Part shown: positions 1,218 through 30,983 of the stretch, piece after piece
How positions within the stretch are numbered: the stretch's first letter is position 1
How the letters are laid out: each line of letters begins with the position of its first letter
Source of the DNA: Pseudanabaena sp. FACHB-2040
Lineage (GTDB): Bacteria; Cyanobacteriota; Cyanobacteriia; Phormidesmidales; Phormidesmidaceae
DNA: 64,000 nucleotides
Assembly (NCBI RefSeq): GCF_014696715.1
Contig: NZ_JACJQO010000005.1
Location: 496,001 to 560,000, forward strand
Direction of reading: 5' to 3'
Notes under the pieces: generated by a model
Databases searched by the model: none
The model's input: only the letters and a program-made list of their open reading frames with translations
Told to the model about the DNA's origin: nothing
Program-made: the position numbers and the translations under genes

Positions 1218-1889
1218 TTAACTGCTTAACAATGTTATGGGCAGCGTCAGGGTGCCGCTAGGGAGTAGCCCCACACCTGTCCCTACATCCATCAACGCAT
1301 CAAACAAAGACTCAGATAGGTTTCTAGAATGCAAAACAACTTCTAGGCTGGAAGCCCGATAAAGCGTGCAGCGGATAGTGTGTAGCGTGGTTTGTAGGAC
1401 TGCCCCAACCAAAACAGAGTCCCGCCGTAGGTTGAGGGCTGTTGATCGCTCCAGCACCTCATCTCGCCTAGGGCCTGCTAAGGCAAAACAGCCCAAGGCC
1501 CCGCTTTGATCAGTAACGGCCAACGAGCCAGCCTCCAAGCGGGTCACGAGGCTGTCTGCCTGATCCGGCAGACATAGCATCAAATAGTCATTCATCGTTA
1601 ACCGCAGGGCAACTATCTGCCCAGCTATCTGGCTAGTCAATGGAGGCGCAGCAGCGGCCCCAGGAACGATCTGATCGACGCGCTCCGCTGCCCCTCGACC
1701 AGAAACCGACACTTTGCCCAGGCAGGCCCAATCGATCAAGACAGCGCCGGTCAGCCGCTGCTGCTGCTCCCGTTCGGGGTTGCCAAAGTGCCGAGCCATA
1801 CACCAGCCCGCCAGCAGCTCTGTTTGTACTGGGTAACGGCGGTAGACACCAGACAGGGGGCTAGTTTTAACCAAAGGCGTTAGCGTCAT
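1218..1889 (-). CDS. soxG: Sarcosine oxidase gamma-type subunit (SoxG/MgdD family)
   Basis: A 223-residue protein with the GcvT-like fold pattern of gamma subunits from heterotetrameric sarcosine oxidase and N-methylglutamate dehydrogenase. Recognisable family features are the early segment LTGAVLIDWACLGKVSVSG, the central NDYLMLCLPDQ strand and the late LHTIRCTLYRASSLEVVLH. Length is close to the usual 190-220. Its ATG lies three bases after the alpha-subunit stop, so it is translated as part of the same operon (synthetase, delta, alpha, gamma). In known complexes the gamma subunit is structural, packing against the alpha and beta chains. It has no catalytic motif of its own. Divergence from characterised members is considerable, so the exact substrate of the complex cannot be read from it. 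Confidence 0.75.
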   Translation of the reverse strand: MTLTPLVKTSPLSGVYRRYPVQTELLAGWCMARHFGNPEREQQQRLTGAVLIDWACLGKVSVSGRGAAERVDQIVPGAAAAPPLTSQIAGQIVALRLTMNDYLMLCLPDQADSLVTRLEAGSLAVTDQSGALGCFALAGPRRDEVLERSTALNLRRDSVLVGAVLQTTLHTIRCTLYRASSLEVVLHSRNLSESLFDALMDVGTGVGLLPSGTLTLPITLLSS

Positions 1890-1892
1890 GAT

Positions 1893-4778
1893 TTAAGAAG
1901 TTAGGCGAGTACCGTCTGGGTCGTAAGCAGCCTGAGCCAGAACAGTTGCCTGCACCTGTTGACCGCTGCCCAGCCGAATTGTAAATTCCCGCTCGGGCTG
2001 CGCCAGCTCCTCAGCGAGCCAAGCCAGGCCAATGCCTTTATCGAGGGTGGGGCTACGGCGAGAACTGGTGATCCGGCCGATGACCTTGCCCTCAGAAAAG
2101 GCCACTACCCCATCTTCAGGAACCGGATCTTGGGCATGGTTGAGCATAAAGGGCACCAGGCGGGTCTCTATCCCCCGCTGCTGAAAGGCCGACAGGGCAG
2201 TCTTGCCAACGAAGCTAGGTTTATCAGTTTTGACCGCAAAGCTGAGGCCTGCTTCGTAGGGGTTCGTCAGCGCATCGGTATCGACGCCGGGAATCAGGTG
2301 CCCTTTTTCCAGCCGCAGAATCCGCTGAGCTTCCACCCCAAAGGGCTTGATTTGAAGGGGCCGCCCTTGCTCCAGCAGAAAATTCCAGAGGGCCTCTCCA
2401 TACTCTGCTGGAAAGTGCAGCTCATAGCCTAGTTCGCCGGTAAAGCCAATGCGAAACATCAGGGCAGGGATTCCAGCAATCTGAGCCTGGCGGCTGCTCA
2501 TGTAGGGAAATGCTGGATTGGCCAGATCAATATCAACCAGCGGCTGCAAAAAATCTCGGGCCATTGGGCCGGTGACGTTGACGGCAGCATAGACAGCACT
2601 GAGGTTCTTAAACCGCACGTCAAAGGGTTCGACTGTCAGCCACCACTGAAATAGCGCGTTAATCGCCTCCTGATTGCCAGTGGTGGTCGTGAGATAGTAG
2701 CGATTTTCCTCCAGCCGAGACAGGGTGCCATCTTCAAACAAAATGCCATCTTCGCCCACCATGATGGAATAGCGGGTGCGCCCAACCGCTAGCTTGCCGT
2801 ACTTGCCGGGCAGCAAAAACTGTAAGAAGTTTAGGGCATCCGGCCCGCTCAACTCCAGCTTGCCTAGGGTGCTGATGTCGATTAGGCCGAGATGCTGGCG
2901 CACGTGTAAGGCTTCTAGTCCAGGATCACCATAGGCATAGGGCCGCTGCCAGCGCCCAGCTTCTAGAAATGTTGCCCCTGCCTGCTTGTGACACAAATGC
3001 ATGGGCGTTCGCTGAATCGGCTGCAGATGGTAGGAGCGGCCTGCCAAGACACCAAAGGAGACCGGGGCAAAAGGCGGCCGCAGGGTAGTGGGCACAGCCA
3101 TCTCAGCAGGGAGACCCGTATCTTGGGCTGCTAGTCGAGCGACGGCCTCGTAGCACTGCTTGCCCTGACACGGCCCCATGCCCATGCTGGTGTAGCGCTT
3201 TAGCGTTTCTACCGCGTCAAACCCTTCGGCGATTGAGCAGCGCACTTCCTGCCGGGTCACATCCATGCACTTGCAGATGATGTGGTGGGAGCCGCCCGAC
3301 TCAATGTCGGCAGGCAGGGCCGGAATTAGATCAGTTGCCTGCCGCGTAGACAGAGGTTGGGGGCTTCCTTGGGCAGCCGCTGTTCCCGCTAACCAGCCTT
3401 CTTCATAGAGCTGAGCAAAGCTGGCAGTGCCGTTGACGTCACCCGCTGCATAGAGCCCTGGGGGCAGTTCAGGGATGCGAAAAACCTGCCGCTGGCTGTC
3501 CCACACCGGGCGATAGCGTCCGGCTGAGAGCAAATTGAGTTGGGGCTTTAAGCCAACTGCGATCGCAACCAAATCACAGGCAAAGCTGCGCAGACAGCTG
3601 CGGCCATCCAAGCTACCAATATCAATGCTAGCGACCCAAGAGTCTCCGTAGGCTGCCTGAATTGTTTGCTCTCGGTAAATGGGAATGCCCAGCTGACTCA
3701 GGCGCTGCTCAAATGGCCCCGGAGTGCCTTCAGGGCGAGCATCTACCACTGCCTGCACCCGAGTACCCGCTCCCAGCATCAGAAGGGCAGTGTGATAGCC
3801 GCCGTCGTGGCAGGTCACCACTACCGCGTTTTCTCCCACTGCCAGTCGATGGCCAGCAATCAGACGCTCCACCCCGCGAGCTGTCAAAATGCCGGGAAGG
3901 TCATTGTTCTCAAAAACGAGATGACGGTCGGTAGCACCGGGTGCCAGCACCACGGCCCCTGCCCGGATCTTGAACAGGTCATTTCCCTGCTGGGCCGCCA
4001 CCAAATTGTCCTCGTAAAGGCCAAAGACAGCGGTGTTTCTCAGAATTTCCAGTCGGGGATGGTCTTTGAGGCAATCTGCCAGTTGGTGAACAGCTTCGTA
4101 TTCTGGCAGCTGATTGAGTACCGCCTCTCGGCAATTCTGCACCAGGGCAATGCTGTGTAGAGCATGGCCGCCTAGTTGGGGCCGATCGTCAATCAGCAAC
4201 ACCTGCCGACCGGCTGCTAGCGCTGCCTGGGCTGCAGCCAATCCTGCAGGGCCGCCTCCCACTACACAGACATCCGGAAAACGGTAGCGCTTCTCGTAGC
4301 GAACCTCATTTTCCCCAGCCTGCCGATCCACCTCTCCCAGTCCAGCGATGCGGCGAATCACCCGCTCAGCCAGCGGCCACAGCCACTTGGGCTTGTGAAA
4401 TAGCTTGTAGTAGAAGAGGTTGGGCAGTCGCGGCACCACCCAACCGTTGATCGCCATCAGGTCAAACTCTACCGAAGGCCAAGCATTTTGAGTGCGGACC
4501 TGCATCCCTTCTCGCACAGAGATCCGATCGGCTAGTTCATTGGGCGTGTTGTCTACCGTAACTAGCGTTTCTGGCCCCTGACCGTGGCCGTCATAGACAC
4601 TGCGCGGCCGGTGAAACTTAAAGCTACGAGAAAATAGACGAATGCCGTTAGCCAGTAAAGCCGAGGTAACGGTGTCGCCCTCAAAGGCAGTTAGGGTTTT
4701 GCCGTTGAAGCTAAAGGTGACGGGGCGGCCTAGGTCAGGCAGCTCTATTTCGGGGTGGTGGGTGATGCGCCGGAACAT
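1893..4778 (-). CDS. soxA: Sarcosine oxidase alpha-type subunit (SoxA/MgdC family) with BFD-like Fe-S motif
   Basis: A 961-residue multidomain flavoprotein. Residues 1-100 form a Fer2_4-like fold in which the usual cluster cysteines are absent (HRPRSVYDGHGQGPETLV). Residues about 170-480 form a pyridine-nucleotide/FAD oxidoreductase (VVGGGPAGLAAAQAAL; later GLYAAGDVNG). C502, C504, C537 and C542 form a CxC...Cx4C pattern like the BFD-type [2Fe-2S] site. Residues about 580-960 are a GcvT/aminomethyltransferase pair that in family members binds tetrahydrofolate and captures the one-carbon unit. It lies between delta and gamma subunit genes, while the beta subunit that carries the amine-oxidising flavin site in studied complexes is not present nearby. 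Likely role: NAD(P)- or folate-coupled demethylation of an N-methyl amino acid; substrate unproven. Confidence 0.85.
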   Translation of the reverse strand: MFRRITHHPEIELPDLGRPVTFSFNGKTLTAFEGDTVTSALLANGIRLFSRSFKFHRPRSVYDGHGQGPETLVTVDNTPNELADRISVREGMQVRTQNAWPSVEFDLMAINGWVVPRLPNLFYYKLFHKPKWLWPLAERVIRRIAGLGEVDRQAGENEVRYEKRYRFPDVCVVGGGPAGLAAAQAALAAGRQVLLIDDRPQLGGHALHSIALVQNCREAVLNQLPEYEAVHQLADCLKDHPRLEILRNTAVFGLYEDNLVAAQQGNDLFKIRAGAVVLAPGATDRHLVFENNDLPGILTARGVERLIAGHRLAVGENAVVVTCHDGGYHTALLMLGAGTRVQAVVDARPEGTPGPFEQRLSQLGIPIYREQTIQAAYGDSWVASIDIGSLDGRSCLRSFACDLVAIAVGLKPQLNLLSAGRYRPVWDSQRQVFRIPELPPGLYAAGDVNGTASFAQLYEEGWLAGTAAAQGSPQPLSTRQATDLIPALPADIESGGSHHIICKCMDVTRQEVRCSIAEGFDAVETLKRYTSMGMGPCQGKQCYEAVARLAAQDTGLPAEMAVPTTLRPPFAPVSFGVLAGRSYHLQPIQRTPMHLCHKQAGATFLEAGRWQRPYAYGDPGLEALHVRQHLGLIDISTLGKLELSGPDALNFLQFLLPGKYGKLAVGRTRYSIMVGEDGILFEDGTLSRLEENRYYLTTTTGNQEAINALFQWWLTVEPFDVRFKNLSAVYAAVNVTGPMARDFLQPLVDIDLANPAFPYMSSRQAQIAGIPALMFRIGFTGELGYELHFPAEYGEALWNFLLEQGRPLQIKPFGVEAQRILRLEKGHLIPGVDTDALTNPYEAGLSFAVKTDKPSFVGKTALSAFQQRGIETRLVPFMLNHAQDPVPEDGVVAFSEGKVIGRITSSRRSPTLDKGIGLAWLAEELAQPEREFTIRLGSGQQVQATVLAQAAYDPDGTRLTS

Positions 4779-5146: not shown

Positions 5147-6469
5147 TCAGCAGTTGACGTACTGTTTCATTTCCCAGGGAGTAATACCGGCGTGGAAAGC
5201 ATCCCACTCGCTGTACTTAAATTCAAAGTAGGTCTTGGTCGCCAGCTCCCCAATCACATCCATCAGCAGGCTGTCGTTTTTAAGGGCTTCCAGCGCTTCC
5301 AGCAGGTTTGAGGGCAGACGCTGCAGGTCAAACTCAGACCCTCGAACGAACAGGTTTTCATCGATGCGCTGGCCGGGGTTGGCCTGGGTAGCGATGCCCT
5401 CCAACCCAGCAGCTAGCAGCCCCGCCAGCACTAGGTACAGGTTGGCAGCCCCGTCTACCAAGCGGCACTCAAACCGTCCAGCCTCCGGAATTCGCAGCAT
5501 GTGGGTGCGGTTGTTGCCGCCATAGGAGATGTATTGAGGGCTCCAGGTGCTGCCAGACTCGGTCATGGCAGCACCCAACCGACGGTAGGAGTTAATGGTT
5601 GGGCCACACAGGGCTGTAAGGCCCCGCCCGTGGGCCAAAACCCCGCCCAGGAAGTGATAGCCTACAGCAGAGAGGCCCCCGTCATCTGCCCCGTCGGCGA
5701 ACAAATTGTTGTCGCCCTGCCAAAGGCTGTTGTGAATATGAGCCCCGTTACCCGTCAGATGACTAAAGGGTTTGGGCATGAAGGTTGCTGTCAAGCCCTG
5801 CTGTTCTGCCAGGGTTTTGACCATGTATTTAAAAAAGACGTGGCGATCAGCGGTGACTCTGGCATCGTCATAGGTCCAGTTGATCTCAAACTGGCCGTTA
5901 GCATCTTCATGATCACACTGGTAAGGTTCCCAGCCCAGTTCCTCCATATAAGTCACCAGCTTGGAGATCAGGTCAAACTGGCGCATCAGGTTGAGCTGGT
6001 CGTAGCACGGACGGGTGGCGGTGTCGTGGGCATCTGCGATCGCATATCCCGTCTCAGTCTGCCGCAGCAGAAAAAATTCAGCCTCCACCCCTGCCTTGTA
6101 GCTGTAGCCCAGCTCAGCCGCCTGAGTCAGCACCCGGTTCAAAATCATGCGAGGAGCCGCTGGAAAAGGCGCTCCATTGAAATACACATCGCTAGCTACC
6201 CAGCCCACATTAGGCTGCCAAGGCAACACAATCAAAGATTCAGGATCAGGGATAACGGCGATTTCTGCAGCATCAGGTCCCAGACCCAAATTAGAGGCAA
6301 AAGACGCAAAAAAAGCGCCGTTTCGCTCCACCGAGCTGATTTTAGCAGCAGGTACGAGCTTGGCCCTCGTCCCCCCCAGCAGGTCAGTGTAAGACACCAG
6401 AAAGAAGTTTAAGCTGTGCTCCTGCGCCAGTTCAGCCAGGGTTTTGCCCTGGGTCAACGTTGCAACCAT
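5147..6469 (-). CDS. gmaS: Glutamine-synthetase-family enzyme, GlnT/gamma-glutamylmethylamide synthetase type
   Basis: A 440-residue glutamine synthetase homologue. The beta-grasp start (TLAELAQEHSLNFFLVSYTD) resembles gamma-glutamylmethylamide synthetases, and the catalytic part has the glutamate/ATP motifs NGAHIHNSLW, the arginine-rich SGSTWSPQYISYGGNNRTH and FECRLVDGAANLYL. Family members ligate glutamate with ammonia or an amine using ATP. The ATG at 6469 is preferred over an ATG at 6508 because GGAG lies about 8 bases upstream and the family begins there. It leads the sox-like operon and is preceded by a perfect NtcA palindrome. Coupling to SoxD/A/G points to an amine such as methylamine rather than ammonia as substrate, but ordinary GlnT function is possible; the symbol is by similarity. 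Confidence 0.75.
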   Translation of the reverse strand: MVATLTQGKTLAELAQEHSLNFFLVSYTDLLGGTRAKLVPAAKISSVERNGAFFASFASNLGLGPDAAEIAVIPDPESLIVLPWQPNVGWVASDVYFNGAPFPAAPRMILNRVLTQAAELGYSYKAGVEAEFFLLRQTETGYAIADAHDTATRPCYDQLNLMRQFDLISKLVTYMEELGWEPYQCDHEDANGQFEINWTYDDARVTADRHVFFKYMVKTLAEQQGLTATFMPKPFSHLTGNGAHIHNSLWQGDNNLFADGADDGGLSAVGYHFLGGVLAHGRGLTALCGPTINSYRRLGAAMTESGSTWSPQYISYGGNNRTHMLRIPEAGRFECRLVDGAANLYLVLAGLLAAGLEGIATQANPGQRIDENLFVRGSEFDLQRLPSNLLEALEALKNDSLLMDVIGELATKTYFEFKYSEWDAFHAGITPWEMKQYVNC

Positions 6470-6614
6470 ACCGTTCTCCAGACCGCTTAAATTAAGACAG
6501 CGGGCCAATCACCTGGCCAACTCCTGAACCCCTTTTGTCATAACGTTATTTGTCACAGCCTTAACGCAGGGGATTCAGTTAAGCCCAGTAAATCAACCTT
6601 GTTATGACAAGTTT

Positions 6615-6628
6615 GTATCCCTAGATAC
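6615..6628. promoter_or_regulatory. NtcA-binding-site consensus (GTA-N8-TAC) upstream of the amine operon
   Basis: The bases GTATCCCTAGATAC match the full NtcA palindrome. The site sits about 150 bases ahead of the synthetase ATG, read on the minus strand. A poor -10-like TTTACT follows after 22 bases on the minus strand; this is the usual NtcA-activated spacing, but its second base deviates from TAN3T. No suitable -10 is visible on the plus strand, so the amine operon is the more likely target than pstS. Confidence 0.6.
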
Positions 6629-27130: not shown

Positions 27131-27829
27131 GTGATTAGCCTTTACATGCAGCCTGACACTTTTAGCACGCTGTTCCCTTTGTTCAATGCGGCCAGTCCAG
27201 AAACCGTTGAGTGGTTGTTATCCGTTGCGACGGAGCATGAATATCCCGCCGATCGCGCTGTGCTAATGGAAGATGCTTGGGGTAATGCAGTTTATTTTAT
27301 TGAATCGGGCTGGGTCAAAGTTCGCCGCCATGCAGGAGAAGGCTTCTTAACGCTAGCCGTTTTGGGGCAAGGAGACTTCTTCGGTGAGATGGCTATTTTA
27401 GACGAATCTCCCCGCTCAACCGACGTAGTAGCCCTGACCAGTGTAAAGCTGCTAAGTATTTCTGCTCAGCGGTTTATTCAAACCCTTTTCAAAGATCCTC
27501 AGCTGCATCACCGTATGCTGCAGCTAATGGTGCAGCGGCTGCGCATGACCAACTTCCGATTCCAGCTCCGGAATCAGCCTCCGGCAGTTAAGCTAGCCAA
27601 TACCCTAGCGGTACTTAACGAAGCCTATGGCAAACCCAGCGGCGACGGCAGCGAAATCCTCTACATTCCATTCAAAGACCTAGCCGACGTTACCGATATT
27701 ACTGAAGACGAAGCCAGCAAAATTATGGCCAAACTGGCTGAAAAAGGCTGGTTGAGAGTAGAGTCTGACCGCCAGGTGGTTACGCTGATCAATCTGAAGC
27801 AGCTCAACCATTTGGCCGGACGACTGTAG
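27131..27829 (+). CDS. Crp/Fnr-family transcription regulator
   Basis: A 232-residue protein starting at GTG (27131), or at an ATG five codons later. The N-terminal cyclic-nucleotide-binding fold spans about 20-125 (AVYFIESGWVKVRRHAGEGF, then VLGQGDFFGEMAILDESPRS). The dimer helix is rich in Arg (MVQRLRMTNFRFQLR), and the C-terminal winged helix has DLADVTDITEDEASKIMAKL. The FGEMAILDESPRSTDV stretch is near the CRP phosphate-binding cassette. The ligand cannot be predicted. Upstream TerB and IMPase genes are separate. Confidence 0.88.
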   Translation: MISLYMQPDTFSTLFPLFNAASPETVEWLLSVATEHEYPADRAVLMEDAWGNAVYFIESGWVKVRRHAGEGFLTLAVLGQGDFFGEMAILDESPRSTDVVALTSVKLLSISAQRFIQTLFKDPQLHHRMLQLMVQRLRMTNFRFQLRNQPPAVKLANTLAVLNEAYGKPSGDGSEILYIPFKDLADVTDITEDEASKIMAKLAEKGWLRVESDRQVVTLINLKQLNHLAGRL

Positions 27830-29675: not shown

Positions 29676-30425
29676 TCAGGAGGATGCAAGACTGGGCTGA
29701 CTGATGTGGCCGTTATGGTTTTGGGCTGCGGCTTCAGCAATGGCGCGCTCGATATTGAACCGATAGCCAACGTTGCGAACGGTTTGGATAATGCTGGGTT
29801 GCCGGGGGTCAACCTCGATCTTCTTGCGTAGAGAGAGAATATGCGTATCAACGGTACGGGGGTTATCAATGGCATCGGGCCAGGCCCGACGCAGCAAATC
29901 AGTGCGGCTCAGAGGCGAGCCTGCTGCTTGGGTCAGCACAAAGAGCAGGCTAAACTCCTGAGGCGTAAGATCAATAAAGTCGTTGCGGAACCGAACTCGC
30001 CGCTGTACTAGGTCGATATTAAGGTCACCGTAGGCTAGAGAAGCGGGCGCTGCTAGGGTGCGAATGCGACGGGTTAGGGCTTCTACCCGCGCCAAAAACT
30101 CCTGCATCCCAAAGGGCTTAGTCAAATAGTCATCGGCTCCTGCTTTGAGGCCAGTGACAATATCCGACTCCCCGTTGCTAGCGGACAAAATCAGCACCAA
30201 AGGTTGCCCCTGCCCATGCAGCCAGCGACACAGCTCTAAACCGTCCCCGTCAGGAAGTTGAGAGTCTAAAATAACCAGGTCTGGGTGGCGGGTTTGGAAG
30301 GTTTCTCTTGCCCGCGCGATATCTGCTGACTGGTAGACCCTATAGCCAGCCTGCTGGAGGTGCCAGCCGAGCAGCGATCGCAGATGGGGATTGCCTTCAA
30401 TGATTTGAACTGAAACAGATCCCAC
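29676..30425 (-). CDS. nrrA: OmpR-family response regulator, NrrA/Rre37-like
   Basis: A 249-residue regulator. The receiver holds the phosphoacceptor D54 (LVILDSQLPDGDGLE), LILSAS and LTKPFGMQEF; the upstream acidic pair is E10-G11 rather than D-D. The winged-helix output domain (about 145-225) has DLVQRRVRFRNDFIDLTPQE and TVRNVGYRFNIE. This sequence pattern recalls NrrA of Anabaena and Rre37 of Synechocystis, nitrogen-responsive regulators of glycogen breakdown and carbon flow that are activated by NtcA. Here a full NtcA-activated promoter lies upstream. Symbol is by similarity plus promoter. No kinase gene is near. Confidence 0.78.
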   Translation of the reverse strand: MGSVSVQIIEGNPHLRSLLGWHLQQAGYRVYQSADIARARETFQTRHPDLVILDSQLPDGDGLELCRWLHGQGQPLVLILSASNGESDIVTGLKAGADDYLTKPFGMQEFLARVEALTRRIRTLAAPASLAYGDLNIDLVQRRVRFRNDFIDLTPQEFSLLFVLTQAAGSPLSRTDLLRRAWPDAIDNPRTVDTHILSLRKKIEVDPRQPSIIQTVRNVGYRFNIERAIAEAAAQNHNGHISQPSLASS

Positions 30426-30465
30426 TGAAGTTCACAGGAGAAACAGCGCGAAATTAATGCCTCTA

Positions 30466-30507
30466 AGACTAACAAACGAAAATAGGAGGTTTTGTAGCTA
30501 GCGTTAC
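30466..30507 (-). promoter_or_regulatory. NtcA-activated promoter of nrrA
   Basis: On the minus strand the site GTAACGCTAGCTAC (30507-30494) matches GTA-N8-TAC. It is followed by 22 bases and then TAGTCT (30471-30466), which fits the TAN3T -10 box. This is the class II NtcA-activated layout, with a predicted start about 35 bases ahead of the nrrA ATG. Confidence 0.75.
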
Positions 30508-30734: not shown

Positions 30735-30983
30735 ATGCTTCAGGACGCTCGAACGATCCGATATTATCAGCGCATCACTGATGCCCTTATGGAGCAGTGG
30801 AACCGAGGATACCGCACCGATGAGCTGCGCCTCTATTTGGAAGGTTACCTAACTTCCCTACGCCACTCCGATGCCCTAGAACCTTACCTGATCCACCGCC
30901 TTGAGGAAGAAGTGCTGCGCTTTCTGCACGACACGTCTAACTTTGTTGTGCCTGAACCAGAATCTGAGCCCGATTATTTCTAA
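30735..30983 (+). CDS. Small conserved cyanobacterial protein, DUF6761-like
   Basis: An 82-residue, mostly helical, charged protein starting MLQDARTIRYYQRITDALME and containing LRLYLEGYLTSLRHSDALEP and YLIHRLEEEVLRFLHD, ending in acidic Pro/Glu residues. It matches my memory of the family DUF6761, conserved across cyanobacteria with unknown function. It is divergent from nrrA. Tandem 14-bp repeats and a terminator belonging to the convergent grxD gene follow it. Confidence 0.75.
   Translation: MLQDARTIRYYQRITDALMEQWNRGYRTDELRLYLEGYLTSLRHSDALEPYLIHRLEEEVLRFLHDTSNFVVPEPESEPDYF

Follow-up and report, generated by a model that had tools for sequence, protein, structure and literature searches.

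The window, a 64,000-nucleotide stretch of the Pseudanabaena sp. FACHB-2040 genome, carries a gene for an OmpR-type response regulator with a promoter of the type activated by NtcA, and a second locus with an NtcA-like box upstream of a type III glutamine synthetase gene. The features on which the analysis turns are as follows.

5147-6508, minus strand: type III glutamine synthetase (576.2 bits against a cut-off of 469.6)
6587-6628, minus strand: putative second NtcA-like promoter upstream of the glutamine synthetase, made up of GTATCTAGGGATAC (6628-6615), 22 bases and TTTACT (6592-6587)
29676-30425, minus strand: nrrA orthologue, an OmpR-type response regulator of 249 amino acids with a GTG start (open reading frame; Pfam Response_reg and Trans_reg_C)
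30459, minus strand: predicted transcription start, from the -41.5 geometry (script)
30466-30471, minus strand: -10 box TAGTCT (TAN3T), by direct reading and script
30472-30493, minus strand: spacer AAAACCTCCTATTTTCGTTTGT, 22 bases, starting with AAAACC and ending with TTTGT (extended -10, TGn)
30494-30507, minus strand: NtcA box GTAACGCTAGCTAC (GTA-N8-TAC), centred at -41.5 from the predicted start, read directly and recomputed by script
30735-30983, plus strand: divergent neighbour, a small DUF6761 protein (Pfam PF20547), outside the promoter unit

Canonical NtcA-activated promoters have a box centred near -41.5 and a -10 box of the form TAN3T (available text of PMC3898017). The window promoter has both class II features, a GTAN8TAC box and a TAN3T -10 at the spacing that corresponds to about -41.5. 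An earlier note on this DNA had described GTA-N8-TAC, 22 bases and TAGTCT on the minus strand, which direct reading and a script confirm, and had placed the start near 30459, the same position that the script computes by counting 41.5 bases downstream from the centre of the box. The extended -10 is TGTTAGTCT and the predicted leader is 34 bases long. Both ends of the spacer, AAAACC and TTTGT, occupy positions that are conserved among orthologues (105 cluster representatives with a 22-base spacer). The claim of a canonical NtcA-activated layout ahead of an NrrA-like regulator is also borne out by the architecture and near-constant position of the promoter, which are kept in most sampled orthologues, and we are highly confident that 30466-30507 is the class II NtcA-activated promoter of the nrrA orthologue. 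As a promoter it is ordinary, another case of the already known link between NtcA and nrrA.

The downstream protein contains both a receiver and a Trans_reg_C output domain (Pfam). In a phylogenetic tree, all 33 chosen orthologues, including those of Anabaena lutea, Fischerella sp. PCC 9431 and Cylindrospermum, fall in one clade (support 0.965) from which all 29 other OmpR-type regulators, taken from four genomes, are absent; the clade has a UFBoot value of 100 in a tree with 25 of these 29 outgroup regulators, four having been dropped for divergence. With the Anabaena lutea orthologue as the query, a match at E <= 1e-100 was found in 188 of the 190 genomes in the family to which Anabaena lutea and Fischerella belong. 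The window protein scores below the equivalog cut-offs for RpaB (169.4 against 330) and PhoB (176.7 against 296.2). The published 5' end of nrrA at -27 in Anabaena 7120 (available text of PMC3141674) fits the same promoter geometry and equals the leader predicted for many orthologues: of the 209 with the exact promoter, 105 have a leader of 26 or 27 bases. It is highly improbable that the gene is a different OmpR-type regulator. All4312 and Sll1330 stand outside our alignment, and the best 25 of 88 NCBIfam families for the window protein all score below their cut-offs and include no nrrA model, but the clade of orthologues, its reach across the Anabaena lutea and Fischerella family and the agreement in leader length argue against a different gene. 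The name nrrA would follow from orthology and matching features (leader length and published NtcA control) rather than from an alignment with All4312. The earlier identification of the gene as nrrA is upheld by the orthologue clade, the conserved promoter, the leader length and the published control by NtcA. One genome (G005, with 6% contamination) has two nrrA copies, L003 and L028, both with an NtcA promoter, which may represent two organisms in one bin.

Within a single genome, the motif alone is weak and unconvincing evidence. The GTAN8TAC box has 5 matches in the window against 4.64 expected, and the complete layout has 18 matches in the 6.28-Mb genome against 11 for the backward pattern. 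What lifts the promoter far above chance is its conservation before orthologous genes; the single-genome count would not decide the matter. We found the exact promoter (GTAN8TAC-N22/23-TAN3T, at most 350 bases upstream) in 209 of 230 distinct orthologues, the window included, with a spacing of N22 in 181 and N23 in 28. A TG precedes the -10 in 196 of the 209, and its G is present in all 209. The N22 consensus, from 105 cluster representatives, is a box that mostly reads GTARC-N4-(G/A)YTAC, followed by AAAACC, with TG ahead of the -10. Among 217 distinct upstream regions, a set that predates 20 later loci included in the 230, the layout occurs on the strand of the gene in 197 and on the other strand in 4; read backwards it occurs in none of the 217, and inside the gene, on either strand, also in none. 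Dinucleotide shuffles contain it in 6 of 2,170 cases. After similar upstream regions were clustered, it remained in 126 of 144. A chance match without function, which the single-genome count would have permitted, was rejected on this conservation and is in our judgement a negligible prospect. An inverted repeat in the spacer consensus, ACAAAG-G-CTTTGT (mean of 2.50 of 6 pairs against 1.48 in shuffles), was dropped as a candidate feature, as it forms 0 pairs in the window and is uneven elsewhere.

These counts derive from orthologues detected in 27 of 29 genomes, this one included (E <= 1e-60), and in 232 of 290 genomes of the class (E <= 1e-50). Upstream DNA was compared for 153 of the 232 by our own count, with the other 79 outside the comparison, and genomes were picked partly by score and partly to broaden the range of families. 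The 230 distinct orthologues come from 268 loci; L027 and L159, whose N termini are cut, were taken out before counting, and loci from further genome searches for nrrA and for a HisKA protein (see below) were left out of the counts. The analysis confirms the link between NtcA and nrrA in one more lineage and shows that it varies very little among the sampled members of the class: the box is the same, the spacing is N22 or N23, the -10 is mostly extended and the leader is similar. Part of this conservation may already be in earlier work; Su and others reportedly predicted the NtcA regulon in 2005.

The exact promoter is missing in 21 of the 230 orthologues. In six of these, a relaxed box of the form GTN10AC is followed by a -10 at N22 or N23, which counts as weaker evidence; the other 15 are without even a relaxed promoter: five in f13, which we take to be Gloeobacter, seven in f5, presumably the hot-spring Synechococcus group, and one each in f9, f16 and f22. 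One of the f5 loci (L155) has only 61 upstream bases. The f9 locus (L022) has an exact NtcA-type promoter at -697 from nrrA, with only short open reading frames between, which could reflect either a long leader or a separate unit. A lack of NtcA was rejected as the cause of the missing promoters, as NtcA is present in all 18 other genomes checked, including all 15 without the promoter.

In Pseudanabaena sp. FACHB-2040, NtcA is encoded once (387.9 bits against the TIGR03697 cut-off of 244.95). In the available text of the relevant papers, nrrA is an NtcA target and served as the positive control of an NtcA chromatin immunoprecipitation (ChIP) study (PMC3898017), is NtcA-regulated and increases at 9 h without nitrogen (log2 5.15; PMC10287535), and in Synechocystis has a counterpart, rre37, with a promoter bound by NtcA in vitro in a 2-oxoglutarate-dependent manner (PMC4295605). 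It is very unlikely that the promoter is real but that its activator is another protein of the CRP family, for example the product of the CRP-like gene in the window. The genome does have seven further TIGR03697 matches, all below the cut-off (eight matches in total), the CRP-like protein of the window among them, but the box is the NtcA consensus, NtcA is the published regulator of nrrA (available text of PMC3898017 and PMC4295605), and NtcA is encoded both here and in each of the 18 other genomes. The CRP-family gene lies close to nrrA, at 27131-27829 on the plus strand; as a candidate for NtcA itself it was rejected (34.9 bits against 244.95).

By analogy with the model strains, nitrogen shortage would lead NtcA with 2-oxoglutarate to bind the box at -41.5, where it would substitute for a -35 element, and RNA polymerase would initiate at about 30459 from the extended -10. 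Newly made NrrA would then activate its own targets, which in model strains include glycogen-catabolism genes (available text of PMC4295605) and, in Anabaena, hetR, as published. The start point and the nitrogen response are predicted for Pseudanabaena sp. FACHB-2040, with NtcA binding and induction taken from the papers on Anabaena and Synechocystis.

The earlier note had further proposed that the promoter links two nitrogen-responsive loci in one window. An NtcA-like box does lie upstream of the type III glutamine synthetase. Among 20 of 21 homologues compared for promoter layout, nine, the window included, have GTAN8TAC-N22-TTTACT and one more has it with N23; the layout is absent in 10 of the 20, among them all five at 54% identity or less. 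In all likelihood the box is a true NtcA-type site whose -10 departs from the consensus, and the proposal of two nitrogen-responsive loci is plausible. Genes similar to soxA and soxG (1218-4778), both below their NCBIfam cut-offs, lie near the glutamine synthetase, and at a guess the locus may be part of methylated-amine use.

What sets the regulator itself apart is its receiver. In an alignment to KdpE, a protein whose structure has been solved, the window protein has Glu10-Gly11, Asp54, Ser81 and Lys103, with Gly11 aligned to the Asp of the Glu-Asp pair of KdpE. Asp54 is the phosphorylation site and Ser81 and Lys103 are the remaining active-site residues; the canonical five-residue active site is incomplete at Gly11, the second acidic position. 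The predicted receiver fold matches the KdpE receiver (TM 0.94 on the target, 1.1 Å); the structure prediction behind this match (mean pLDDT of 81.4 for the best model and 64-68 for the four others, pTM 0.50) served solely as support for the equivalence of residues. The complete acidic pair is missing in 225 of the 230 orthologues, usually at the second residue. Asp54 is kept in 206 and both Ser81 and Lys103 in all 230. The phospho-accepting Asp is replaced in 24 (by Ser in 12, Glu in 8, Asn in 2 and Ala in 2), equivalent by parsimony to seven changes on the tree, and all 24 keep the exact promoter. Among the 29 other OmpR-type regulators, 22 have the acidic pair (DD or ED), four are cut or gapped there and three (L299, L300 and L282) are without it.

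Two groups illustrate the replacements. In genus g35 of family f22 (L133 and L304-L312), Ser takes the place of the phospho-accepting Asp in 10 of 10 loci read, with the promoter kept. Two f12 loci, L025 and L146, the latter presumed to be perhaps Synechococcus elongatus PCC 6301, have Ala instead and a promoter with N23.

A pseudo-receiver is defined in the available text of PMC12632262 as a receiver without any one of the five active-site residues; on this definition the window NrrA is a pseudo-receiver through Gly11, and 225 of the 230 orthologues are likewise. The same source states that the second acidic residue contacts the metal directly, and calls the way in which pseudo-receivers are activated and inactivated a mystery.

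An intact acidic pair occurs only in the five f13 orthologues among the 230, and all five are without the promoter. At all five f13 loci (gene sets at L344:4389-5633, L345:4517-5770, L346:2740-3993, L347:1846-4711 and L348:4343-5231), an open reading frame of 69-74 residues overlaps nrrA, and its end lies 29 bases beyond the position that aligns with the window start codon. The small protein consists of a HisKA domain on its own, which scores 29.7 to 36.0 bits (cut-off 26.9) at the four loci of the five that were scanned, and the stretch RHD-x-GEPL-x-AIRLYA is invariant in it. A gene for a CheY-like receiver precedes the HisKA gene in four of the five loci (three of the four scanned by Pfam), and at L347, the only f13 locus scanned that far, a complete PilJ-HAMP-HisKA-HATPase kinase lies ahead of the CheY-like gene. 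A profile of the HisKA protein matched 4 of 195 genomes of the class at E <= 1e-6, all of them f13 and all at the nrrA locus; the fifth f13 genome, below the completeness filter, was outside this search. The same profile search found no match in the Pseudanabaena sp. FACHB-2040 genome, and a sixth f13 genome had no nrrA match at E <= 1e-60. A more distant promoter driving the f13 gene set was considered and rejected: none with a -10 lies within 1,300 bases upstream at any of the five loci, and exact boxes without a -10 occur in two of the five upstream regions.

The f13 orthologues form a clade (supports of 0.967 and 0.878, UFBoot 100), which all three trees place as sister to the other orthologues; the grouping of those others is weak (0.659, 0.577 and UFBoot 60). 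Since the acidic pair is lost in what counts as one event, the association between this loss and the promoter amounts to one contrast and is not a statistic. Family f5 has neither the acidic pair nor the promoter. With weak support at the root, we propose that NrrA became a pseudo-receiver dosed by NtcA in place of a phosphorelay; the f13 gene set could be ancestral or have been gained in that family.

Because the receiver is without a complete Mg2+-binding acidic pair for phosphorylation, NtcA-driven synthesis would be the main input of NrrA, and the promoter may be its chief switch. We place about even confidence in a broader reading of the sequences, in which NrrA in most cyanobacteria that have it is a pseudo-receiver dosed from an almost invariant NtcA promoter and no longer through phosphorylation, the output of a phosphorelay having been rewired into a one-component regulator; f13, on this reading, kept the intact receiver and the HisKA gene set, and has no recognisable promoter. 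The active site may still be used to some extent, given that Asp54 is kept in 206 of 230 orthologues and Ser81 and Lys103 in 230, and phosphorylation may still modulate NrrA. The rival reading, in which NrrA is still controlled by some kinase as well and the promoter sets only a ceiling, strikes us as possible but somewhat doubtful. These retained residues speak for it, as do the f13 orthologues with their intact receiver and HisKA neighbour, but 225 of 230 orthologues are without the complete pair, usually at the residue that binds the metal (available text of PMC12632262), the phospho-accepting Asp has been lost in 24 orthologues by seven parsimony changes with the promoter kept every time, and the HisKA neighbour was not found outside f13 among the 195 genomes. 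In the available text returned by literature searches on NrrA or Rre37 with phosphorylation or kinase, no partner kinase is named, and a search pairing 'pseudo-receiver' with 'NrrA' found no paper among those covered. If the rewiring of NrrA into an NtcA-dosed regulator is true, it would explain why no partner kinase turned up in the portions of the literature examined. The comparison also turns the question of how pseudo-receivers are switched into a testable case, with NtcA-driven synthesis as the switch and f13 against the other lineages as a natural contrast.

Spo0F-Spo0B-Spo0A is a system of the phosphorelay type. The f13 loci resemble it in having a CheY-like receiver (four of five), a HisKA-only protein (five of five) and an OmpR-type regulator next to each other, a putative phosphorelay-like set. 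In contrast to that system, the f13 HisKA protein stands alone, without an ATPase-like domain, and the window genome has no match to it. Among regulators with pseudo-receivers, GlnR also regulates nitrogen use. NrrA is like NblR, GlnR, ChxR and HP1043 in that at least one of the five active-site residues is missing (available text of PMC12632262). It differs from these four in keeping the Lys, the Ser and mostly the Asp, and in having a dedicated NtcA promoter, and its independence of phosphorylation is presumed from sequence. Among promoters, the closest parallels are rre37 (sll1330) of Synechocystis sp. PCC 6803, which is called an NrrA orthologue and has an NtcA-bound promoter (available text of PMC4295605), and nrrA (all4312) of Anabaena (Nostoc) sp. 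PCC 7120, where an NtcA-regulated promoter likewise precedes the orthologous gene. The -27 end of the Anabaena gene has its like in 105 of 209 orthologues, whereas the window promoter has a longer predicted leader.
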